64,000 nt of DNA from Ulota crispa (lineage: Eukaryota; Streptophyta; Bryopsida; Orthotrichales; Orthotrichaceae): positions 11,496,789-11,560,788 of the forward strand of contig OY987242.1 of assembly GCA_963920765.1 (NCBI GenBank). Reading direction: 5' to 3'. Shown here piece after piece: positions 3,401-54,088 of this stretch. How positions within the stretch are numbered: position 1 is the first letter of the stretch; every line of letters starts with the position of its first letter. The position numbers and the translations under genes are program-made. The notes under the pieces are model-generated. The model did no database searches, was not told the origin of the DNA, and was given only the letters and a program-made list of their open reading frames with translations.

Positions 3401-3666
3401 TTTACCCTTGTCTAACTTACCAGAAAAATTGTTGTTTAACTTAAGAGAAAAAAACCAGTTCTTTTCCCCACCCAATTTCTCCCCATAATTTTCTATATAT
3501 ACGTATGTATGTGTGTGCTAATTGAACACACAAGAGAAATGTTCTTGTTTCATGATATGGAGTTTTTTTAATGCTGTTTTTGAGCCTTGTTTTGTGGATG
3601 ATGCAGGATGAGGCTCCCCATCTTGTGAATCCTTTGGTGGAAAAGTTTGTGGCAAGCCACACTTAG
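474..3666 (+). CDS. Chloroplast alpha/beta-hydrolase fold protein (At5g19850/pheophytinase-like), 8 exons
   Basis: Exons: 474-784, 996-1088, 1796-2007, 2195-2339, 2619-2691, 2854-3000, 3200-3325, 3607-3666, about 388 residues, all with GT-AG borders and consistent phase. Exon 1 is Ser/Thr-rich and acid-poor at its start (MASAMAMYSCRWQASPC), as expected for a chloroplast transit peptide. Its 3' border (784) is the least certain; it gives the junction KTWKWRDYNIRYQ. Later exons carry the family landmarks: the oxyanion-region motif LVLIHGFGAN, DHWRKNIPVLAKTHRVYAIDLLG, the nucleophile elbow CNSVGG (Ser), the lid segment SLRMLHIKKQ, ILCECYHDD, CYSGGPLPEE, the catalytic acid in WGEKDPWEP and the catalytic His in VGHCPQDE. 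These match, from memory, the plant At5g19850-type plastid hydrolases related to pheophytinase. The substrate cannot be read from sequence. The catalytic triad is intact and no disruption is visible, so the gene is probably active. The first ATG in the frame is at 474; upstream in-frame sequence lacks an ATG. Confidence 0.88.
1325..1762. mobile_element. Stowaway-like MITE in intron 2 of the hydrolase
   Basis: The left end reads TATTCCCTCTGTCTCTCTAA and the right end is its imperfect reverse complement (TTAGAGGGACAGGGGGAGTA). Both ends border TA. The CTCCCTCtGTC-type terminus and TA target fit Tc1/Mariner-derived Stowaway MITEs of plants. It lies wholly within the intron between 1088 and 1796. 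About 438 bp, no coding content. Confidence 0.65.
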
Positions 3667-8301: not shown

Positions 8302-8321
8302 TAGTGCAAGACACCACTTAA

Positions 8322-8544
8322 CCCCTAAACGGCCCATCGGTCATCTCTGGCTGTATGTACGGCCGTATATATAGCCATATTTGAGCTGCTCTGAGGATTT
8401 TCCAAAAAAATTATGCACCCACCATTGTCCAACCCTTCAATATGTATGGTTGTAACATTTAATTTCCAGCTAATTCAAACTTTTGAATAATGACTGTGAC
8501 CGTATTTGGTACCGTATCTCTATAGTCCAAGGGCCCTTCAAGGG
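8322..8544. mobile_element. TTAA-flanked short element A, first of two in tandem
   Basis: Bordered by TTAA on both sides (8318-8321, 8545-8548). It begins CCCCTAAACGGCCC and ends GGCCCTTCAAGGG. Nearly the same sequence is repeated directly at 8556-8779. Confidence 0.72.
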
Positions 8545-8555
8545 TTAACCTTTAA

Positions 8556-8779
8556 CCCTTGAACGGCCCGAAAGCCCTTTGTGGTTGTATGTACGGTCAT
8601 ATGTACTTACGTATTTGAGCTGCTTTGAGGGCTTTCCAAAAAAAATTATGCACCCACCATCATACCACCCTTCAATATGTATGGTTGTGACACTTAATTT
8701 CCAGCTGATTCAAACTTTTAAATATTGATTGTGGTCATATTTGATACCGTAACTCCAGAGCCCAAGGGCCCTTCAGGGG
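8556..8779. mobile_element. TTAA-flanked short element B, direct repeat of A
   Basis: Bordered by TTAA at 8552-8555 and 8780-8783. It shares with element A the internal blocks TGTATGTACGG, TTATGCACCCACCAT and CAATATGTATGGTTGT in the same orientation. The pair is separated by only a few bases. Confidence 0.72.
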
Positions 8780-8863
8780 TTAAATGTCGAGGCGGATGTT
8801 TTGTGTCCGCCTTCAATACACAAGGGGCCATGTATCCACACTCACCCCCATGTGTTTAAGGGT

Positions 8864-10299: not shown

Positions 10300-10303
10300 T
10301 TAA

Positions 10304-11222
10304 CCCCTAAAGACTTGAACATCCTTTTTTGGCAATATAGCAATTTTGGGCAGCTCACTACCAATGGGGTCTTCATTTCTTTTCTTTGAAAATTTTCACA
10401 CATGACGTTTCTGAGAAGAAGCTTTAAGGCCCAACAAATACCATAACTTCTGACTTCATGGTTCAAAAGTTATTGCATGATATGTAATTTTCTTTGCTTG
10501 GCGGGCAGCCATTAATTTCTTTAAAAACTACATTTTTTGAATTTTGTTTTTTGAAATTGGTTCTTTAGTTACAATTACTTCGGAAGCTTTGAATCATTCC
10601 AATTTTATCAATGAGATGAAAGTTATGAGAACATTTTGTTTGTGGGCAATTATGGATTCTCTACTCTAAAATAAACTTTGAAGTCCTTTATTTTACTCAA
10701 TTTTCAATATTTCAGAAAGAAAACAAAACCAAAAGATGTCAATTGTTTCTCACAACATTACAACCTAAGAGTGGAATCATTCATTTCTATAATAGGTTCT
10801 TAACAATTTAGTGGTCTAAATCATTCTCTACTTCTTTTTACTTACTATTTTTTTTTCTTATGTTGCATTATTCCAAATGATTTGAAACTTTTCAAGTGTG
10901 TACCCAACTTGCTTCAAAGAACAAGTCTAAAAAATTACAACCATTTTGGAGTTTTTTTCATACAAATATGACCTTGTGAAGTTCAGCTGCCTGGAATTTT
11001 GCAGAGACAAAAAATGGCTTTTTATCAATTCAAACTCAAATATCTAACAATCTACATGGTGAAAATTCATGAATTTTTTAATATGTCTTTGGATATTAGT
11101 GTAGTACAAGATCTTACGACTACATTTGTCAAAATGTCTTCTTTTCTAAAATTTGGTACTTGTACTAGAAAGGACAATTTTGGAGCAATTTTGGTGAAAA
11201 TTTGAGCTTAGTGCTTTAGGGG
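10304..11222. mobile_element. TTAA-flanked element, 919 bp
   Basis: TTAA at 10300-10303 and 11223-11226; begins CCCCTAAAGACTTG and ends GTGCTTTAGGGG. Nearly the same length as the copies at 36351 (917 bp) and 52986 (942 bp). A short open frame at 10999-11205 has no recognisable motif. Confidence 0.8.
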
Positions 11223-11226
11223 TTAA

Positions 11227-18603: not shown

Positions 18604-19578
18604 ATGTGGTCTGATGGTTTTTTTCCTATAGGCTATGAAGACTTGTCTAGGGGCTTGGAGGCAATTCTGATCCCTGTAGCACCTCATGATTCAAAAATGA
18701 CACCTTTCAAGTACATAGCTACTAGTATAGTACATAACAATGCTTACATACATACTTCTATTGTTGGGTTAGGGAAAGGTGAGTGTTGTTCTTGTGTCTC
18801 AAAGGATTGCCTAACTGCAACGGTACCTTGTTAGTGTTCAAATGCCACTGATGGTGGGGTTTGCATACAACCTAGGTGGGTTGTTGAAAACTAAGTTTTT
18901 GTTAAACAGTGGTAGAAAGAGGAGGTTCATTACGGAGTGTAATTTGAAATGCCCTTGCCACATTAAGTGTGGTAACTGTGTGGTTCAACAGGGTATGAAA
19001 TATATGGTAGAAGTGTACCACATAGTGCAAACCGGATGGGGGATCCAAGCTAGTCAGTCTATCCCCAAAGGTGCGTTTGTTTTTGAGATGACTAGAGAGG
19101 TGTTGACTAATTCAGAAATGGCAATTAGAAACCTAGTAGTCAATGACGGTCCCTCATATAGTTTGCAACTAGACGCTAATTGGGCCACTGAGCGGAAGTA
19201 AAATGACAACACGGCGTTGTGTTTGGATGCCACGCACTATGGCGATATTGCGAGATCCTTGAATCACAAGTTGGACATCTACCATGTTTTTCCTATTGTT
19301 AAAAAAGTGAATGAATGCATATGAATTTTCTAATCGATTTATTACTCATCTTGTGCAGGTGTGGAGATGCTAACCTGATCGATGTGCTTGTGAAGATCAA
19401 GAACGGTGGAAAATGCTTCTACTACGTTGCTTTTTTCACAAACTGCATGATCAAAGAGAAAGAAGGGTTAATTTGGGATTATGGAATAGACTTTGAAGAC
19501 TGCAACCCAACGATCTTGTGCTTTTCATGTAAGTGTGGAAGTGTGTTGTGCAAAGACCAATTTTCAAATTCTATTTGA
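18604..19578 (+). pseudogene. SUVR-type SET-domain histone methyltransferase pseudogene
   Basis: Pre-SET remnant: FKYIATSIVHNNAYIHTSIV then GECCSCVSKDC, matching the plant SUVR pattern (F-YI-VYQNAY, CC--C--DCL). After the TAG at 18832-18834 the homology continues in another frame (GFAYNLGGLLKTKFLLNSGR), so a stop and a one-base G insertion near 18855 break it. SET core: CPCHIKCGNCVVQQGMKYMV, GWGIQASQSIPKGAFVFEM, LQLDANWATERK, a TAA at 19199, then ALCLDATHYGDIARSLNHK. A donor at 19271 and an acceptor at 19359 would join NHK to CGDANLIDVLVKIK, restoring the SUVR4-like NH-C-DAN motif. The end has LIWDYGIDF and post-SET CKCGSVLCKD. Family members methylate histone H3K9. Two nonsense codons, one frameshift and the change of the usual EY-GE to EMTRE argue against activity. 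It lies in transposon-rich DNA, so it may be captured. Confidence 0.82.
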
Positions 19579-28187: not shown

Positions 28188-28191
28188 TTAA

Positions 28192-29791
28192 CCCCTAAAG
28201 ACTCAAGCCCTTTTTCTACCAAAATCATTGAAAAATGCCACTTTTGGGAGAATGAGTAGAAATATAAGAAAAAAAGTTTTTTTCAAAATTTCAACCATAA
28301 CATCTTGCCCTAGACAACTAGAGGTTCTTGTGGGAAAAAATGAGCTCATTTCAAACAAAGAGAAGTGAGATATTGTCATTTGAAGTGAAGACAAAAGTGT
28401 ATTTTTGTGCTGACCAAAAATTTCAGAAGCCTTTAACCACTCTTATAGCAAAAAGATTGCTCTACACAAAACTGATATTTTATTTCTCCATGTAGTAAAT
28501 CAAGTTAGGTATGTGTAAGAGAATTTTCATATCAAATGGAGGTGCATAACATACTCCAAAAAATCTTTGAATGCCAGAAAGTCATGAAATTTGCAAACAC
28601 ACTAAACAAAATTGGAGGGTTTGTGTACACTTCAGAAATTCAAAGTACACTAATCCAAGTACTGAAAACCAAGGAATCCTAACCAACTAGAACTTAATAA
28701 AAATAAATTAAAAATGGTTATAAGTGGCTCAAAATTTAAAAAAATTTAAAAAATTTGAGGAGGGGCAAGTAAAATGGAGGATAGAGGGACCCTTGGGACG
28801 GGCTCATGGGCCCCCTCCTCCCAATCCCCCACCTCCCTAGCCCGCAGTCCGTGGGCTGGCCACATGGCGGGCGCTATAGGCCTTGCCCCGGCTTGTGTTA
28901 AGGTAGGAGGCTCATAAATGGAACATCTAAGGGCTAAAACTGAATTTTGGATAGGTGAAATTCCTTGAAATAATTTTCAATAAACTTTCCTTGAAAGACA
29001 AGATGAATCTACATCTAACCCAAATTGTTTCATATTTTTTGAAACTTTGTGGAATTAGTTATGAATATTTGAAGTGGAAAGGCCATAGGGCTCTAAAATG
29101 GAGCACCTCCTCAAATGTACATGAGTTATACATTGTTGAAGGGATATGAAAAACAAAATGTATAGAAAGAGTACATTTGAGGAGGTGCTCTGAATTTGAG
29201 CCTCCTACCTTAGGGTTGGGGGGGGTCCAAAAAAACTCCATGTCTTCCCAAATCTTGGTCTGTTGGAGTCAAGTTCCCATTTCTATTTCTAGACGTTCCT
29301 GCACGCATCCAAAGTACACGCTTACAAAGGCTCTATTCTCATGTGGTTAACTCTTACTTTAGCAGGTCCAACGCAGCTATTTTCAGGAGCTATACATGCC
29401 TTGTGTCATCGGCAGAGACATCCGCGCGCCTCCATGCTTATTGTTTGCAAAATTGGTCATTGCTGTTAAGCTAGGCGCAGAACCTGCCAAGGAATTTTTT
29501 TTGTCTAAAACTACTGCTAACTCTACCTCCACTACCTGCCCCTTTTTACAATCAACTCTCACATATAAAACGTAGGTGCTACCCATATTGCCTTTTCTCC
29601 CTAGTTTTAAAAAAATTCATACATAATTTCTTTTTAAATGTTGGAATAAAAGAAAAATTAGATAGCTGGGTAGGTCTTTGAATTCCTCACTTTCAAAAAA
29701 AAGTTTCAAAAAATCACACAAACTATATTTGCTATAGGTACATACCCAAAGTCTCACTTGGCCCTTAAGGGACCACTTGGGCCTTTAGGGA
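28192..29791. mobile_element. TTAA-flanked element, about 1.6 kb, with a nested MITE
   Basis: TTAA at 28188-28191 and 29792-29795. Begins CCCCTAAAGACTCAAG; the right end CTTGGGCCTTTAGGG resembles other family right ends. It contains the MITE at 28909 and a GC-rich patch at 28780-28900. A second possible right border (TTAA at 29799) leaves a few bases of doubt. Confidence 0.65.
28909..29212. mobile_element. MITE with AGGTAGGAGG termini (copy 2, reverse orientation)
   Basis: Ends TTAAGGTAGGAGGCTC and GAGCCTCCTACCTTA. The interior (AGTTATGAATATTTGAAGTGG, ACATTTGAGGAGGTG) is the reverse complement of the interiors of the copies at 4910 and 51925. Confidence 0.8.
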
Positions 29792-29795
29792 TTAA

Positions 29796-31119: not shown

Positions 31120-31122
31120 TAA

Positions 31123-31541
31123 GGGCATCCCCAATCTAGCTTAGATTTCAACTCCGCAAACTCTGTCAGACTGTGTCTGATGATGCCTCAGTTGCAGAGC
31201 ATGGGCATTTCTCCAGTGCAGTAGCCCCAATGCAAACAAGTTCTGACACTCACTAACCATGATTTTTTATTAGTTTTTGTCTCTTTTAAGTGCTTATGAG
31301 TGGCTGATTCATGTCAAAAGTATCTGGAATTCCCTAAAATTGCGTCAATGTCAAAGCTGGAGTGATATGCACGACTCTCCAAATAGTGAAAATTTACAAG
31401 GGAGGGACTCTTATGTGGGGAGCCCTAAAAAATGCAATATGATTTAACTGCTGCATTGAAGCCTATGTTTTTGCTCAAGTCCAATTTAAAGCACTGCACA
31501 AGCTTTTACCTGCCTCTCTTACGGCTGCATTCGGGATGCCC
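31123..31541. mobile_element. PIF/Harbinger-like MITE, uninterrupted copy, 419 bp
   Basis: Ends GGGCATCCCCAATC and GGGATGCCC, with a direct TAA duplication (31120-31122, 31542-31544). The three-base TWA target fits PIF/Harbinger. It carries the empty TTAA site at 31496-31499 that is occupied in the second copy. Confidence 0.85.
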
Positions 31542-31544
31542 TAA

Positions 31545-35166: not shown

Positions 35167-35170
35167 TTAA

Positions 35171-35737
35171 CCCCTAAAAGCCCAAGTGGTCCCTCGGGGG
35201 CCAAGTGGGGCTTCGGGCATGTACTTATAGCTAAACCGCTTTGTGTGATTTTTAAAACTTTCATGGAAGATGAGGAGTTCAAAGATTTGCGTGGGCATCT
35301 AATTATTTTTTCATTCCGACATTTTTTGAAAAGTTGAAAATGAATTTCTGGAAAATACGGGAGGGAGGTCAGCCCAAAACTTTATTAAAAATTGCATTTT
35401 CTTTAAATAAAAATATGAAATAGGTTCTTTAGACTTGTATATATGTGGAAGACTTTGAATCATTCAATTTTGATAAATGAGATGAAAGTTCTGAGAGGTT
35501 TTAGTTTGTGGGTAGGTGTGGAAGTTTTTGGGCTGCCCGTCCTCCTCCGTTTTCTAAAGATTCATTTTCAACTTCTTTCAATAAATGTCGGATTGAAGAA
35601 ACAATTATATGGCCGCACAGATCTTTGAACTCCCCATCATCCATAAAAGTTTCAAAAAATCACACATAGTGGTTTAGTTGTAAGTACATGCCCAGAATCC
35701 CACTTGACCCCCAAGGGGCCACTTGAGCCTATAGAAG
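35171..35737. mobile_element. TTAA-flanked fold-back element, 567 bp
   Basis: TTAA at 35167-35170 and 35738-35741. Arms of roughly 200 bases are inverted repeats: left CCCAAGTGGTCCCTCGGGGG, GGGCATGTACTTATAGCTAA, against right-arm complements with TTAGTTGTAAGTACATGCCC and GGGGCCACTTG. Almost the whole element folds back. Confidence 0.82.
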
Positions 35738-35993
35738 TTAAAATTTCAAAGTCTCATCAAGTGTTTGCACAACAGGGTCTAATTTTGACCATATCCAATG
35801 TGGCATATGACATGATGGGTAGATTATATCTCAAGCTTGTGAGAGTTATAACTTGATCCCATGAGACAAAAATCTTCAAAATATTAAATGTTGTACAAGA
35901 ATAATAAGGGTATTGCAACCCCATCAAGAGAGCGAGATCTCTTCCTTCCATGCTCACCCCATGAAGATTATCTCTCCTCCTTAGGGCATCCCC

Positions 35994-37323
35994 AATCAAG
36001 TAGGGAAAATAGCCCCAGGAATTGTGTCAGATCGTGTCTGACTCTGCGTCAGTTGCAGATCAAAGGCATTTCCCCAGTCTAGTAGCTCCAATGCAAACAA
36101 GTTCTGACACTCACTAATCACAAATTTTTTAATAGTTTATGTCTTATTTAAGTGCTTATGTGAGGAGATTCATGTCAGAAATATCTGAAATTGCCTAAAA
36201 TTGCGTCAGAGTCAAAGCTGGAGTGGTATGCATGACTCTCCAGATAGTGAAAATATGTAAAGGAGGGGCTCTTGTGTGAGAAGCCCTAAAAAGTGCAGTT
36301 GCAATTAACTGCTGCATTGGAGCCCATGTTTTTGCTCAAGCCCTGTTTAACCCCTAAATCCTTGGGGCCTTTATTTTGTCAAAAGACACCCAAAACTACC
36401 ATTTCTATTGCAAAGAGTAAAAAAATTTGAAAATTGGTTTTTTTTGTATATCTAATCATAGGATCTTGTACTAGACTTGTATAAGAATGTGCACACAAAA
36501 ATGCATAAACTTTGACCACACAGATTGCAAGATATTTGCAATTGAATTGTAAAAAACAAGCTCTTTTGCACCTTGCATGACTAGATTATTTGACTTTGAG
36601 CTTTTTTAACTTAAAATTTTTGCATTGCAGAGTTTTGAGATTTATGTTTTTATGTTGGAAAATTGAGCTAAGAATTTAAAAAAAAAAACTAAACCAAAAT
36701 AGCTAATTTTCACTCTTAAAAAAATCATTAGGTGGATGAAGGTTTGTGATTGAATAAAAACTTAAATTGTTAATAACCATGCAATGGAATTGAAATGCAA
36801 TAATCTCAATGGTGATATTGTTCTAAAAAGAAAACTTCACCCTCCTCAACAGTTTTTTTTGAATAAATGTTAAACTTGCATTCAAAAATGAAGTTTATAT
36901 GTTATTTTTTCAAAATGATGCTTAAATTGCCCGAAAAACAAGATTGTCCATAACTTTCTCATAACTAGTCCAAATGGAATGAATCAAAGCTTCAGATGTA
37001 TAAAAAACTATAGCCTATGAGAAAAAAAAATTCAAAAATTCAAATTTTTGTAGTTTTTTTTGTTGCCCAATCTCCATAAATTTTTGCTTATCTAGGCATA
37101 ACTTCTTTTTTTGGGCATGGATTGGAATACAAATTATATTCCCCAAAAGCTTATGTGTTTTCCTATCTTCTAAAAAAAGTTTCAAAAAATCAAGACAAAA
37201 ATTGAGGCTGTAAGTACCTGCCCAAAATCTCATTTGTCCCCCAAGAGGACACTTAGGGATTTAGGGGTTAACACACTCCACAAGCTTTTGCCTACATGTG
37301 TTGTGGCTCGATTAGGGATGCCC
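35994..37323. mobile_element. PIF/Harbinger-like MITE copy 2, split by a TTAA element
   Basis: Ends GGGCATCCCCAATCAAG and GATTAGGGATGCCC with direct TTA duplications (35991-35993, 37324-37326). Its 35994-36346 part is a close homologue of 31123-31492, and 37272-37323 of 31500-31541. Between them sits the TTAA element. Confidence 0.87.
36351..37267. mobile_element. TTAA element, 917 bp, inserted in a MITE with a known empty site
   Basis: Borders: GTTTAA|CCCCTAAATCC and GATTTAGGGG|TTAACAC. The undisturbed MITE copy reads CCAATTTAAAGCACTGC at the same place, with one TTAA. This directly demonstrates TTAA target duplication. Interior AT-rich with no transposase. Confidence 0.93.
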
Positions 37324-37475
37324 TTATAGAATCTCTAGGATTGTCTTGCAAGGGTTCAACACATTTCAAGCATGAATGACAAGTAATTGAAGAGCAAAGA
37401 CCACCTTTGAAGTGCAAGAGTGGAGAACAAAAATTTTAAGAACCTCTCAAATAAAGATGTATTGTAAGTACAGGG

Positions 37476-37813
37476 CAGATTCGGCAGAAAATAATACCCC
37501 AACTGTAGCCAAATTATTCTATAAATCATTCTCTAAAAATGCTAAATGTTAAACAAAACAAAAAACTGACATGCGTGATAAATTGACATGCGTAATAAAT
37601 TGACATGTGTGATAAATTGACATGAGTGATATATTGACATGCGTGATACATTGACATGCCTGATATTGCCAATACACTTAACTAATTTTGTTCCAAGACC
37701 AAACAATAACGACTTTTTTTAAAGGGCCGAATTTGTACCAAATTATTGAAGCATATGCTGAATGAAAATTTTCTCAAAAAATATCTGATTTGGCGGCTAA
37801 CAGCCGAATCTGC
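37476..37813. mobile_element. Possible MITE with GCAGATTCGGC termini
   Basis: Inverted 11-base ends GCAGATTCGGC and GCCGAATCTGC enclose about 338 bases including the 18-base tandem repeat. No clear target duplication, so the element is tentative. Confidence 0.5.
37567..37667. repeat. 18-base tandem repeat, about 5-6 units
   Basis: Unit TGACATGCGTGATAAAT with single-base variants (GTAATAAAT, GTGTGATAAAT, GAGTGATATAT, GCGTGATACAT). Confidence 0.9.
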
Positions 37814-37893
37814 TTTCCACCTACATTAATCTCTTGAACTTTTAAATTTGATATGGAACGCTGAAGATGCTCTTAGTGGTTAAAGTTGTTTAA

Positions 37894-37973
37894 CCCCTAA
37901 ATGCCTGAGGCACCAAATTTTAATGTTCTACACACTAAATTTTGGTGCCTCAAGCATTTAGAGTTAACCCTTA
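37894..37973. mobile_element. 80-base TTAA-flanked hairpin, minimal member of the family
   Basis: TTAA at 37890-37893 and 37974-37977. Arms CCCTAAATGCCTGAGGCACC and the near-complement GGTGCCTCAAGCATTTAG pair almost completely over a loop of about 16 bases. The right TTAA is directly followed by CCCTTAAATGCTGC, like another family terminus. Confidence 0.8.
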
Positions 37974-38281
37974 AATGCTGCTTTGGTCACTGCGACTAGC
38001 TCAATTACAATATTTACATTATTCCTCTCAGTGTCTAGCAATCATAATATTAATTCTTAAAGTTGTAAGGGTCAACAGTGCATGGTGCTCTCATGAAAAT
38101 TGCAAGAAGGGCAGCTTGGGACCTAACACCATATTTTTATATCTTAGCATTTATCACAATTTGAGTTCCTGCATAATATGATGGCATTTGATTAGGTAAT
38201 TTTTTGTGTTCTGTGAAGAACCATGTGTTTATGATCACTTTTGAAAAAAATCAGATGAAAATTGACTTTTTGTGTAACACA

Positions 38282-38598
38282 TAAGGTAGGAGCACCCATA
38301 AACGTCAAATTAAGGGTTTTGAACATGATGACTATTAATTAACAATTAGCAAATTATAGGATCCTATTAGGAACATAAAAAAATGAGTTTGCACTTTCAA
38401 ATATATTATTTGGATACTGTGACAAGAAGTTGTGAATTTTTAAAGAGCAAACTGCAATTGCATCCATAACCACATTTAAGATTTCATGTTCACATGTTGT
38501 GCATCCTTGTCATTACATCTATTCACTTCCACAAATTTTCCAAGATTTCAGATGTAACAATTATGGGGACACTGACGCATAGGGGTGTTCCTACCTTA
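38282..38598. mobile_element. MITE with TAAGGTAGGAGCACC termini (copy 2, 317 bp)
   Basis: Same length and interior as the copy at 7985 (GGGTTTTGAACATGATGACT, CATCCTTGTCATTACATCTA). Right end CCTACCTTA is slightly diverged (GGGGTGTTCCTACC). A TTAA element is inserted directly at its right tip. Confidence 0.88.
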
Positions 38599-38599
38599 A

Positions 38600-39227
38600 C
38601 CTCTAAATGCCCAAGCAACCAAATTTGGGTTGCAAGGAAACTTTGAAGATGAATAAAAATTTATCAAACCATTATTTTCAGTATTTTATTTTCAATATAA
38701 GTTTGTTTTGAAGTCTACTTTCAACATCAAAAATCTGATTTGTAAAATAAAATTTGATGATTTTTCTACTTGAGATTTTGTACAAGGGTGTACACTGCAA
38801 TCTTGAGTTTTCTAGTGTTGGAAAATCTTGAAAATGAGCCTCAAATACGCTAGAGCTTGGAGAAAAATCCACATTAGAAATCCATTTAATAATAATGTAG
38901 GAGTAGATTTTCAAAACCGTAAATTGATTCAAGTTAGACATGTAATGACCTTAAACCTTGTATTTTTGTGGTGACCAACTTTTTGAATTTGACATGTGAA
39001 ATGAGGATTAAAAGACTATAAGTCACTTTTGCAATTTTAACACCCTCATGTTCAAACATTATAATCTTTCAAACTATAAGTGATATTGTTGTGTTTTCTT
39101 TTTTCATGTAATCTCTAACATGTTTAGTTTAAATTTGTACACTTGATGAAATTCATAGAGAGATTGATTGATTGTTCAGTTTCATGGAAAGTCCAAGAAG
39201 CTCAGATAGGACTTGGGCATTTAGGGG
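38600..39227. mobile_element. TTAA-flanked element, 628 bp, inserted at a MITE tip
   Basis: TTAA at 38596-38599 and 39228-39231; begins CCTCTAAATGCCCAAG and ends CTTGGGCATTTAGGGG, an inverted pair. The left TTAA overlaps the last bases of the MITE. It ends about 370 bases before the eIF3b start codon, so it borders the promoter. Confidence 0.83.
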
Positions 39228-39231
39228 TTAA

Positions 39232-39598
39232 TCTTTTTCCAGAGCTGGAGGATGTTTCTCGTCCTCCTCGACGTTTAGGGTTGTGATCATAAAATGGTTC
39301 CCCTAAGTTGCTCCTTTTTGTCTCGAAGGAGCGTGGGGAGCACAGAGAACGTGGGGAACATAGGGAACATCACGAACGAGGCGAGCCTGACCTAAAAAAC
39401 CCTAAAACTTCGAAAGAGCTGTGGCCTGCTTTAGTTATTTTGCATTGTATCTTGCGTTCAATCGGCCACCGCTGTATCTTTGTTTCCCTTTTTTCTCGCG
39501 TTGTCTCCATTTTTTGCACTAGGGACTGTTGTTATCGCAACCCGGACGCGACGGCCGTTCTTTTGAGTGCTCAAGTGGCGCCCACGGCGCCGCACGAT
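39232..39598 (+). promoter_or_regulatory. Promoter and 5'UTR region of eIF3b
   Basis: Higher GC than the transposons upstream, with a purine-rich repeat of GGGGAGCACAGAGAACG-like units at 39330-39385. The frame of exon 1 is open through here but has no ATG before 39599, so I treat it as leader. No core promoter element was identified. Confidence 0.45.
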
Positions 39599-42500
39599 AT
39601 GGTGCCCCGGCACGATATGGTGCCTCCGGGGATGGAAGAGGAGGAGCAACAGCCGCGAATCCAGTTGAATATCGACTGGGGTAATGTGGATTTGGATTCC
39701 ATCGTGCTGCCCCCCGGCGATGACATGGGCATTAAGAGGTAATCCAGAAGGAATTCCCTCTTGTAAGGATTACGTGCGCAGGACGTTTTTTGCATATGAA
39801 TACTACAATCTCTATCCTTTCAGTCTTGGTCTGTCTTACTCACTTTGCATCTAGAATAATTTCATCCTTTTATAAAAAACGATTTTTTGAGGTTTATCTT
39901 TTATTGAGATGTAGCGCATGTATGAATGATTTGCAGCGATGACGAAGAAGAGGAAGAAGAGCCTCATGAATCTGAGACAGGTTTCGGTAGCGTTATTGTA
40001 GTTGATAATTTGCCCGTCGTGGCATCTGAGAAGTATGAGAAGCTGGAAGGTGTCATCCGCAAGATTTTTGGTCAAATTGGTGTCATCACTCCGAACGGTC
40101 TATTGATGCCAAGGGACGAAAGTGGGAAGACTAAAGGCTACGCCTTTATCGAGTACAGCAGTTCTCAGGTACAGTGTACATCTGCTAAGTTTCGATTATG
40201 TGTGATTTCAAGTTGCTGTGTATCCTGCTGAACACCTTGGACTTTGCGAGTTGTGCAGTTGAGGTTTAGTTGCTAAACAATGGGAGCTGACCTAAACTTA
40301 CGAAACTGATATTGTTGAACAGTATGGTATTGGAACTGTAATAATTAGTTTATGTAGCGGTTGTACCTTTAGATGTAAAGTCGTCTGCATTTTCAACATA
40401 GAATTTTGTTTGAATTTTCGAGTCTTATTCTTGGGGCCCTGTTCGTGTGGAATAACTTAATGTTTCTTGCTGCAGGAGGCACAAACTGCTCGCGAGCAGA
40501 CGAACGGCTACAAGCTTGACAGATCCCATGTCTTTGTCGTTAACATGTATGACGACTATGAGAAGTTTATGAGAGTGCCTGATGAGTGGAACTCGCCAGA
40601 AATTAAGCCCTATACTCCTGGGGAAAACCTTGTAGCTTGGCTGACAGACGACCGGGGCCGGGATCAATTTGTTATTCGTTTCGGATCTGAGACCGAGGTG
40701 TACTGGAACAACGCAAGTCAAGGGAAGCCTGACCCAGTGTATCATCGCTCTGTAAGTTACTTCATTCTGTCGTCATTGATTTTGGTTAGAACGGGGTCAG
40801 TTGTATATTGGTCAATTCAGGCTGATGTAATCTGAGGTTTGCTAACTTTCTCTTTTGCGAAAACAGTTCTGGACGGAGAGCTTTGTGCAATGGTCGCCAT
40901 TGGGTACCTATCTGGCCACTATTCATAGGCAGGGTGCTGCCGTGTGGGGAGGAGAGAAGTCCTTCAATCGTCTCATGCGTTACATTCACTCTCAGGTATG
41001 TCGAGTGCTGTGCTTTTTGCTTTTTTTTTTCTTGAAGTGTAGAAAAATCACTTGTTTTATGGATATGGACAGAACCTTGTTATAGCAGCCTAGTTTTCCA
41101 AATAGAAGTGATTTACTTTATGAAGGCATGGAAGAATTAACCTTAATTTGTGTCTTCTCTTTGTTCTGAGCAGGTCAAGTTGATCGATTTCTCTCCAGGA
41201 GAGAAGTTTATGGTGACGTACAGCAGCCATGAGCCCAGTAACCCACGGGATACTCAGGTACGCTCAGTGCTTATGTGTACTTCTGTTACCACAATGACTT
41301 TCAAACAGTTCATAATTCAGTTCCAATTGTTCCTCACATACTGTACCCTTGTTGGGATCTCATACATGTTACGCGTTTCCGATTTGAGAAGAGTTTATCG
41401 TACTGTCGTGTAGAACTTATTTGTACCGTTGGTGTCCAGTTTAAACTCATCCAAGCGACTGTCCTTCGTGGTTGGCTTGCAGAGAGTTACTTTAATGGTC
41501 TTTGATGTTCGTAGTGGCAAAGTCCTCCGTGAGTTCAAGGGAAGCGCGGATGACTTTGCAACTGGCGGGACTGGAGGTATTGCTGGTGTGTCATGGCCTG
41601 TCTTCAGGTGGGCCGGCGGCCGGGAGGATAAGTACTTCGCACGAATTGGTAAAAATGCGATTAGTGTGTATGAGACTGAAAGCATGGGTCTACTGGATAA
41701 GAAATCACTGAAGGTGGAGAATGTGGTTGACTTCTGCTGGTCTCCAACCGACCCGCTTCTGTCGCTCTTTGTACCTGAAGGCGGTGGTGGCAACCAGCCT
41801 GCTAGGGTGAGTATTCTCACATGTTCTTTTTCTTGTTTTCTGCTGGTAACTGGTGTTGTCTACAGTTCTGGCTATACGGTTTGATCAGTTCAGTTGGCTA
41901 AACACGTATGCCTATATGCTGAACATGGACTAAAAGTAATTCTGTTTGTGTTCGTTCAGGTAAGTCTGGTGTCTATCCCCAGCAGAGAGGAGTTGAGGCA
42001 GAAGAATCTTTTCAGTGTCAGCGACTGCAAGATGTACTGGCAAAGCAATGGCGAGTACCTGGCTGTTAAGGTGGACCGGTACACAAAAACCAAGAAGAGT
42101 ACCTATACTGGATTTGAGCTTTTCCGTGTGAAGGAACGTGATATCCCTATTGAGGTTCTTGAGCTTGAGAACAAGAATGACAAGATCGTGGCATTCGCTT
42201 GGGAACCGAAGGGTCACCGTTTTGCTATCATCCACGGTGATGGTCCACGACCGGATATTACTTTCTACTCAATGAAGGGTCGTGTGACGAAGCTCACCAC
42301 CCTCAAGGGCAGACAAGCTAACGCCCTCTATTGGTCCCCCCTTGGACGCTTCATCATTCTTGCTGGTACGCTTTCCCCTTTTTTTGCTATTCTAGCTGTC
42401 TTTGTTGCTCACACACGCCGACGCAATAGTTCACATCAGAAGTTGCCCACTATCAAGATGTGGTTTTAATCCATACATTTGTGGTGTCCGTTGTTTTGAA

Positions 42501-43368
42501 ACGCAATCTCTGGCATTCTCTCAGGTTTGAAGGCATATAACGGTCAGCTTGAGTTCTACAACGTGGATGACTTGGAGACAATGGCGACGGCTGAGCATTT
42601 CATGGCTACTGACGTTGATTGGGATCCTACTGGCAGGCAAGTACCTCTGTCGCCGTTGCCACCTAGTTTATTCATACTCCTGGTATCTGTTTGAATGTGA
42701 GTGTAATATACTAGGCATGATAGTTTTGCATTTCGAATGTTTAGTTGGTTGCTTGAATGGGAGTTTGCGCTCTTTTGCAGGTTCTGTTCAACTTCAGTCA
42801 CGTCCGTCCACCAGATGGAGAATGGATTCAACATCTGGTCATTCCAAGGGAAGTTGTTGTATCGCCTACCAAGGGACAGGTTCTTCCAGGTATGTATGTG
42901 TATATGGCTGTCTTTCCTGTAGTATCAAGTTTCTAGATGTCTCGTTTGCAAGCAAGCAGGTGGTCTCTTGAGGTGAAATATTTCATTCCATAAGTGACGT
43001 CATTTCATCTTTCCATTCAGTTTCTATGGCGCCCAAGACCCCCGACACTGATCACTGCTGACGACGAAGCTGAGATCGCCAAGAACCTGCGAAAGTACAG
43101 CAAGAAGTACGAGGCTGACGATCTTGCAAGATCTCTGGAGGGTACCGAGAGGGACACTGAGAACCGCCGGAAGTTGGTGGATGAGTGGAAGTCGTGGGTC
43201 GCCCAATGGAAGTCAGCGCAGGAGGACGAAGCGGAGATGCGTCTCATGCTCCGTGACGGTGTCCCTAGCGACACCGAGGAAGACTACGAGGCAGAGGAAG
43301 TAGAAGTAGAGGAGATTATCAACATCGAAGAGGAAGTCGTTGGGTACGGATTTGAGCAGACTGACTAA
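39599..43368 (+). CDS. eIF3b: Translation initiation factor eIF3 subunit B, 10 exons
   Basis: Exons 39599-39738, 39937-40168, 40476-40751, 40867-40995, 41174-41257, 41483-41806, 41960-42365, 42525-42636, 42781-42889 and 43021-43368 join to 719 residues, close to the usual plant length. N-terminus: acidic (IDWGNVDLDSIVLPPGDD), then SDDEEEEEEPHE; RRM with IVVDNLPVV and KGYAFIEYSSSQEAQ; the beta-propeller follows (DQFVIRFGSETEVYWNN, FVQWSPLGTYLATIHRQG, FDVRSGKVLREF, FCWSPTDPLL, MYWQSNGEYLAVKVDR, FAWEPKGHRFAIIHGD, ALYWSPLGRFIILAG, VDWDPTGR, TSVHQMENGFNIWSF); then FLWRPRPPTLI and a C-terminal Glu-rich helix. eIF3b is the scaffold of the eIF3 complex that recruits the 40S ribosome. The intron after GR uses a GC donor. 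The second and third in-frame ATGs (39617, 39632) are alternative starts. Gene intact. Confidence 0.95.
42637..42780 (+). other. GC-AG intron in eIF3b
   Basis: The exon ends GGCAG and the intron starts GCAAGT; the acceptor is TTTTGCAG. Only this border keeps the conserved frame (DPTGR joined to FCSTSVTSVHQMENG). Using the nearby GT (gcaa|gtacct) would throw the next exon into another frame. Confidence 0.88.
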
Positions 43369-52981: not shown

Positions 52982-52985
52982 TTAA

Positions 52986-53662
52986 CCCCTAAAATTCTTT
53001 TGTGTTTACAGGTAAAAAACTGCTTCAAAATACTAGTCCCTAAACCAGGGTCAAAATTTTCATTAAAACTTACTTTTTAACAAATCCAACCGTAGGATTC
53101 ATTGGTTAACTTGCACAAGTACATTGTCCCAAAATTTCAGAATGAATATCCCCATCAATTGCAAGGTTAATGTGCCTAAACTTCAAAATTTAGGTTTTCT
53201 AGTCCTTCCAAAATATGAAGTTTTGTTTTTCAAAGAATTTAGAGAAAAGCATGCTTTTTGTATTTCTTGTGCAATTTTGGCAATAAGTTGGAAAATGGAT
53301 TGAAAGCATATATAAAAAAATTTAACCAAAAGAAATTCAAATTCATTTTTACAAAAATTGTAAAGTGGAAGGTATTGATGAATGGAAGATATAACTAATA
53401 TGCTAATAAATTTTGGAAGAATTTGAAAATTGTTAATCCCAATGGTGAGAATGCTCTAATAGACAATGAGTAACTTTAATTTTCATTCTCATTTGAAAAT
53501 TTTCAAAATTAAGAGTAAAAGATAACTTTATATGTTTTTTCTAACCTCTTCCTACCTTCATTGCCTGTAAAGTAAAACTCCTTTTAACTCTTACCTCATT
53601 ATTTGGAATTGAGTGATTCAAATTTTTTTGGGTAGGTATCAATTTGTACAATTCTATACAAA

Positions 53663-53725
<63 letters not shown>

Positions 53726-53927
53726 TACCCGATTTGACATTGAAATTGAAAAAACCTTATAACTTTTGCATTACTTATTGGAATGACATGAAATAAAGCT
53801 TCACATGTAGATTATGATGAGTAGCATTCATCCTAAAAATTTCATGAAAAATTTCCAAATTATGAAGTCAATAGAGCCTGCCCAAGTTCTCATAAAGCCC
53901 AAAGTGGGCTCCTTGGTTCTTTAGGGG
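52986..53927. mobile_element. TTAA-flanked element, 942 bp, with a TA microsatellite
   Basis: TTAA at 52982-52985 and 53928-53931; begins CCCCTAAAATTC and ends TTCTTTAGGGG. The interior includes a (TA)n tract at about 53668-53720 that probably accounts for its extra length over the 917-919 bp copies. Confidence 0.82.
53668..53720. repeat. (TA)n microsatellite
   Basis: An uninterrupted AT dinucleotide run of about 50 bases. Confidence 0.97.
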
Positions 53928-54088
53928 TTAAGGCAAGATGTACCAAAATTGTATCCTTAAAACTTTACTGAAGATGAATCATAGAAATGGTGGTGGTTGG
54001 AGCCTTTGTAGCCTCCATGCAATGCACTTTTTTTACCCAATTTGTTGGCTTTGGACAATAGGATGGAGGCTTTGCAAGGAAGTCCCAG

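Follow-up and report, generated by a model that had tools for sequence, protein, structure and literature searches.

Each insertion of a family of 925-bp units in the moss Ulota crispa duplicates a 4-bp target, which is almost always TTAA. The unit was detected in the window, the whole 64,000-nucleotide stretch of DNA that was analyzed. It is very probably a non-autonomous element (MITE) of the piggyBac superfamily. The superfamily itself is a known kind of transposon, found here in a lineage of hosts with few records of it. Among PDB chains, the plastid psaB protein of this genome gives its best scores with 7ksq, 6l35 and 8htu (1679 bits each), followed by 9lut (1641) and others at 1602 bits or less. 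The first three chains belong to the moss Physcomitrium patens, in keeping with a moss as host, and the chromosome-size contigs C1-C10 and a C11 point to about 11 chromosomes. The evidence comes from a filled and an empty copy of the same host MITE, from the bases flanking other members of the family, and from transposase-bearing elements of the same genome that have ends of the same type.

In the window, two copies of a PIF/Harbinger-like host MITE are found, one of them interrupted by the 917-bp insert (Table 1). Both are bounded by a direct duplication of TTA or TAA and have ends of the GGGCATCCCC type, a motif that we take to be a mark of the PIF/Harbinger family. When the empty copy (31123-31541) is aligned with the two flanks of the insert, TTAA is present once in the empty copy and twice in the filled one, and no gap is found at the junction. 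Identity between the two host copies is 82% over the 207 bp that span the junction, and they are paralogues at different places, not alleles. It had been claimed that TTAA is duplicated on insertion and that the flanks align without gain or loss, and both statements hold for this pair, the former being reinforced by 16 out of 16 further empty junctions. The coordinates given originally also hold, apart from the empty site, which had been placed at 31490-31515 and starts just after the TTAA of the empty copy.

Table 1. Positions of the transposable elements and their parts in the window
Feature	Position	Strand	Remarks
Empty paralogous host MITE	31123..31541	+	TAA at 31120-31122 and 31542-31544; single TTAA at 31486-31489
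Related TTAA element, 575 bp	35167..35741	.	Ends similar to the 925-bp element's right end
Filled host MITE, PIF/Harbinger-like	35984..37323	+	Ends GGGCATCCCC...GGGATGCCC; TTA at 35981-35983 and 37324-37326
Left target-site duplication, TTAA	36347..36350	.	From alignment with the empty copy
Non-autonomous element	36351..37267	.	917 bp; 925 bp with both TTAA
Left terminal inverted repeat	36351..36364	+	CCCCTAAATCCTTG
Right terminal inverted repeat	37254..37267	-	CCCCTAAATCCCTA on the minus strand
Right target-site duplication, TTAA	37268..37271	.	From alignment with the empty copy
Palindromic TTAA element, 78 bp	37890..37967	.	Almost only two inverted repeats
636-bp element, CCCCTAAATGCCCAAG class	38596..39231	.	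TTAA on both sides

Further copies of the host MITE were sought by searching the window's own genome (275 Mb, 157 contigs; 40 of 480 candidates scored) with the joined flanks of the insert. Counted from the resulting table, 39 of 46 rows, the window's own empty copy included, cross the junction by at least 20 bases without an insert. Junctions were fetched for 16 of the other host-MITE copies in these 39 rows and are all continuous, without an insert; they read TTAA in 14 cases, TCAA in one and TTTA in one, and several are identical to the joined flanks of the filled copy near the junction. Two other interrupted host copies, L119 (C1:37141660-37142060) and L120, appear in this table as halves, in four rows. 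Their inserts are two other elements, of ~290 and ~240 bp, each lying between two TTAA and with ends that include CCCCTGAAGGG, CCTGTGAAGGG, CCCCTGAGC and CCCTTGAGG. The L119 insert occupies the same host-MITE TTAA as the window element, and yet another element has one end, the only one read, at this TTAA in L121 (C7:21292400-21292610). The presence of three different TTAA elements at one TTAA in three copies of the host MITE suggests a preferred site. A gapless filled/empty pair is also formed by L007 and L023, the empty site being CTAA. The further filled and empty sites, for which a search had been proposed with the original prediction, include clean cases at L119, L120 and L007/L023, and a single end at L121. 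Less regular is L008, which sits in a relative of the window's 575-bp element: the empty L029 and L017 align across the junction without a gap but are 1-2 bases off TTAA, the window's empty copy has TTAA and a one-base gap ~10 bases away, and L035 has a two-base gap. One candidate, L028:8562-9478, in which the insert would lie in an L020-like end, was dropped because of gaps near the junction.

The 925-bp unit itself (36347-37271) starts with TTAACCCCTAAATCC and finishes with GGATTTAGGGGTTAA, and the ends of the 917-bp insert read CCCCTAAATCC...GGATTTAGGGG. No open frame of at least 110 aa was detected in the insert. The motif TTAACCCCTAAA, with at most one mismatch, occurs 16 times in the window, compared with 0.71 expected. 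A genome search with the element returned at least 41 places, itself included (40 of 4,122 candidates scored). The 40 further copies are 80-91% identical to the window copy, the 80% copy being that at C5:18804461, and the remaining 40 places show 86-91% identity or are the window itself. In most copies, homology stops at or near TTAA on both sides, and the terminal inverted repeats begin with CCC, CCCCTAAATCC being the form found in most of them.

Genes for piggyBac transposases have been detected in the same genome. The piggyBac transposase domain (PF13843) matched in 120 rows, representing at least 116 loci (116 of 528 candidates scored; best E 1.3e-73), and was absent from the control genomes (0/14). 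Stop codons are present in 110 of the 120 rows. The L020 transposase, in two uninterrupted pieces, and the L030 frame align with the solved structures 6x67, presumably that of Trichoplusia ni piggyBac, and piggyBat 9c0f. The DE, DN and GVDxxDQ motifs are all kept in L020 (TVDE and LMDN in one piece, GVDVADQ in the other), and their three aspartates are assumed to be the catalytic residues; the L020 gene is broken, and in L030 GVN replaces GVD in the third motif. A Cys-rich tail follows the transposase in L020. Upstream of this transposase, inside the 5.7-kb element, lies a Gln/Glu-rich open frame of 416 aa (L020:5802-7049, minus strand) that gave no Pfam match and may represent either a second gene or an N-terminal portion.

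For 20 of the 116 transposase loci, the surrounding 10 kb was read. A convincing end pair was found in six (L017, L018, L020, L022, L026 and L032), and none was seen at the remaining loci among the 20. Around eight transposase matches, no enclosing pair of CCCC-type ends was seen up to a distance of 1.5 kb; the elements are longer, and the 10-kb stretches showed ends at some of the 20 loci. The piggyBac transposase is carried inside 5-6 kb elements with TTAA-CCCCTAAA ends. L017 and L026 represent one 5.0-kb transposase-bearing element (90% identical; ends CCCCTCATCGCC and CCCTTCATTGCC), and their homology stops at most one base from the two TTAA of L017; L026 is flanked by TTCA on one side and TTAA on the other. 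The L020 element measures 5,746 bp and has CCCCTAAATGCCTAAG and CCCCTAAATGCCTAAA ends between TTAA. TTAA flanks L022, L018 and L032 on both sides, and their paired ends differ at 4, 4 and 2 of 16 positions, respectively. Three further transposase-bearing relatives with the left end in place, at C9:1933610, C4:5933793 and C4:14106323, have the ends TTAACCCCTACATGCCCAAG, a decayed TTAGTCCCTAATGCCC, and TCAACCCCTAAATGCCCAAG, and the left end of one transposase-bearing relative, L130, reads CCCCTAAATGCCCAAG, the prevailing form among the matches listed. A 6.3-kb element proposed at L035:1065-7354 was rejected, since its left end belongs to a neighbouring MITE, and only its right end was used. These transposase loci and the TTAA-CCCCTAAA ends of the elements that bear them support a piggyBac-type interpretation of the window element, for which piggyBac and Kolobok had both been named.

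Short copies with the same termini as a transposase-bearing element are also present. Searching the genome with L020 gave at least 85 rows (40 of 6,145 candidates scored), and at 29 places the two terminal stretches of L020 lie side by side in the same orientation, over 0.90-1.06 kb in total. Left ends are 82-92% alike and right ends 70-82% alike in these copies; the two located near 10.98 Mb on C5 may have arisen by duplication of a single one. Because both end stretches adjoin on the same strand within this length, the 29 places are short derivatives sharing both termini with L020. The end pattern TTAACCCCTAAATSCCYNAG, which pools several variants, is matched exactly at 3,474 places in the genome and at no place when read backwards, and TTAACCCCTAAATGCCCAAG is found in all but 20 of the matches listed. 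The same pattern without TTAA has 4,143 matches, so 84% of the ends have TTAA outside. Scanning 289,506 bases for TTAA-flanked inverted pairs gave 28, some of them compound; the reversed sequence yielded 4, and none of 20 block shuffles more than 1. Among the pairs in the window, 35167-37271, 35167-39231 and 37890-39231 were rejected as elements, being compound pairs that join the ends of different elements.

None of the fetched elements qualifies as the transposase-bearing parent of the 925-bp family, as they share only ~20 bp of end with it, and a longer match of L035 to the family falls in the neighbouring MITE. Sola3 elements also duplicate TTAA. So does the Kolobok superfamily (PMC9587614, PMC6004289), and TTAA duplication alone cannot separate these superfamilies from piggyBac. 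It could be hypothesized that a Kolobok-type or Sola3-type transposase moves the element and that its CCCC ends resemble those of piggyBac by convergence, the more so as the parent is missing from what was fetched (20 of 116 loci read). However, the piggyBac-encoding elements of the same genome end in CCCCTAAATGCC[CT]AA, the 29 short copies share both termini with the piggyBac element L020, and the matched non-TTAA targets of the 925-bp family, CTAG excepted, are those reported for animal piggyBac in a passage of PMC6651600. In addition, the enzyme genes found here with matching ends are of piggyBac, the piggyBac model being the one searched. A Kolobok or Sola3 origin is therefore considered improbable, and assignment to piggyBac is preferred.

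The origin of the four flanking bases was studied by examining the ends in all 41 places of the family. TTAA is present on both sides in 32 of them, L059 being scored as such despite the loss of one C, and C7:4961229 with one base gained inside. In four copies, a matched 4-mer other than TTAA is found on both sides in direct orientation: ATAA/ATAA at L002 and at L063/L064, TTAT/TTAT at L089/L090, and CTAG/CTAG at L087/L088. The flanks are unequal in four more, with TTAA on neither side in L005 (TTAC/GCAC) and C7:21314577 (GTAA/CTAC) and on one side only in L085 (CTGA/TTAA) and L099 (TTAA/TTGA), where the other end is 1-2 bases off TTAA. The remaining copy, L004, is truncated. When, for the 40 complete copies, the 4-mers from the two sides were re-paired at random, none of 300,000 rounds reached four matched non-TTAA pairs, the maximum being three, attained 45 times; an earlier re-pairing of 37 copies over 200,000 rounds did not reach four either. 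The four bases come from the target, as indicated by the matched non-TTAA 4-mers in 4 of 41 copies and by the failure of all 300,000 re-pairings to reach that number. In the 640-bp class, the facing pairs within 1 kb on chromosome C1, among the matches listed, have TTAA at both ends in 18 cases, at a single end in 4 and at neither end in 1. The flanks of this last pair, a case that had been predicted, read CTAA/CTAA. The central TA is kept in all matched non-TTAA sites. From the sequence alone, paired duplications of this sort distinguish a duplicated target from a TTAA that is a constant part of the element's end. For animal piggyBac, non-TTAA sites are given as ~2%, mainly CTAA/TTAG and ATAA/TTAT, and TA is thought to be conserved in the targets (passages of PMC6651600, citing Li et al. 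2013), but further sites reported in the same paper depart from this conserved-TA rule.

These flanks also bear on the possibility that the inserted element is a PIF/Harbinger element of the Tourist type, its 3-bp duplication (TTA or TAA) being extended by one chance base. Both trinucleotides are contained in TTAA, and the host element is PIF/Harbinger-like. But all four bases also match at sites with a different sequence, CTAG/CTAG and ATAA/ATAA among them, and symmetry of the inverted repeat requires a 4-bp site. The inserted element was accordingly rejected as PIF/Harbinger, a reading that we regard as very improbable. The view that TTAA is the outermost sequence of the element, with no target duplication and with an empty site due to deletion or chance similarity, has in its favor the 32 of 41 copies that carry TTAA at both ends like a fixed terminus, but it would leave no TTAA where the empty sites keep one, as the 16 fetched junctions agree, and the matched non-TTAA 4-mers together with CTAA/CTAA in a second family make its probability negligible. 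An extra TTAA belonging to the MITE, or members lacking TTAA on one side, had been named at the outset as evidence that would speak against duplication: the former was tested and does not hold, and members of the latter kind do exist but are few (2/41). Duplication of a 4-bp target is retained as the explanation of the flanks.

The 925-bp element, which is without a transposase of its own, was most likely moved by one of the 5-6-kb piggyBac elements of the genome, acting through the CCCCTAAA ends. The piggyBac enzyme would excise the element with TTAA overhangs, open a TTAA target and join the element ends four bases apart, and repair would then leave TTAA on both sides of the insert. ATAA/TTAT, CTAA and CTAG would occasionally be used as targets. 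The transposase responsible for moving the family is inferred, and any present activity would be a conjecture: the other copies are 80-91% identical to that of the window, and stops occur in 110 of the 120 transposase rows. The hairpin chemistry is proposed by analogy with animal piggyBac, for which TTAA hairpins and seamless repair are described in a passage of PMC7351741.

Other features have been observed in the window. The 575-bp element has inverted arms of ~215 bp, its two ends reading TTAACCCC and TTAACTTC, and its relatives occur in several of the fetched loci. In the 78-bp element, CCCCTAAATGCC and CTCTAAATGC inverted ends lie back to back between TTAA, and this arrangement could possibly be a minimal piggyBac substrate. 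Facing TTAACCCC or TTAATCCC ends are present at 10300-11226, 52982-53931, 28188-29795 and 8318-8783, and some of these stretches may be whole elements. A tandem array with a 17-bp period and TTGACATGCGTGATAAA-like units occupies 37546-37681. Outside the repeats, open frames at 39308-43368 resemble exons of a translation initiation factor, with a Pfam eIF2A domain in 41894-42466, and the gene is presumably eIF3b. An open frame at 18842-19198 has a weak SET-domain match just under the Pfam cut-off (21.6 vs 22.4 bits).

Compared with known systems, the moss elements share with the piggyBac superfamily the duplication of a 4-bp TTAA, the rare use of other targets in which the central TA is preserved, ends beginning with CCC, and a DDE_Tnp_1_7 transposase with three aspartate motifs. 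Differences are found in size, the transposase-bearing elements of the moss being ~5-6 kb long whereas intact beetle piggyBac elements are 2.1-3.5 kb according to a passage of PMC12732532, and in the ends, many of which begin with CCCC in the moss, in contrast to the CCCT of known piggyBac; CCCT-type motifs are described as the commonest piggyBac termini in animals in the same source. The 3,474 MITE-type ends of one pattern also far exceed the transposase loci (at least 116), unlike in known piggyBac. Short non-autonomous copies of a piggyBac family are likewise described in Daphnia (mPok1 and mPok2; PMC4912750), but the host here is a plant and several length classes are present, of ~240, 290, 640, 730 and 925 bp.

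In the literature, the description of TTAA-duplicating transposases of this type as little described in land plants is a fair one, although piggyBac labels do occur in plant repeat tables. Among the matches listed in the open PMC literature (titles and starts of abstracts), no recognizable paper on piggyBac elements in a moss was found; one that appeared to be such (PMC10619864) was set aside, as the passage concerned uses the word "piggybacking". Passages of other papers include PiggyBac among the MITE superfamilies identified in angiosperms (PMC10004981), give 1,230 PiggyBac copies in a table of the C-fern genome (PMC6890710), and count PiggyBac among the superfamilies present in all taxonomic groups studied (PMC4438587). 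More recently, plant piggyBac studies were described as still limited, with occasional occurrences, for example in red algae (passage of PMC12732532, 2025).

On balance, the data lean slightly toward the view that mosses have their own lineage of 5-6 kb piggyBac elements, which gave rise to several MITE families with thousands of copies and follows an animal-like relaxed target rule, that is, TTAA, then CTAA or ATAA, with TA constant. If true, this would be a well-documented radiation of piggyBac in a land plant. The piggyBac transposon, which originates from animals, is in wide use for genome engineering. The moss transposases, together with thousands of matching ends and clean filled and empty sites, provide plant material on the entry of the superfamily into land plants, and they also bear on the antiquity of the target rule and on a plant-derived enzyme as a possible tool.
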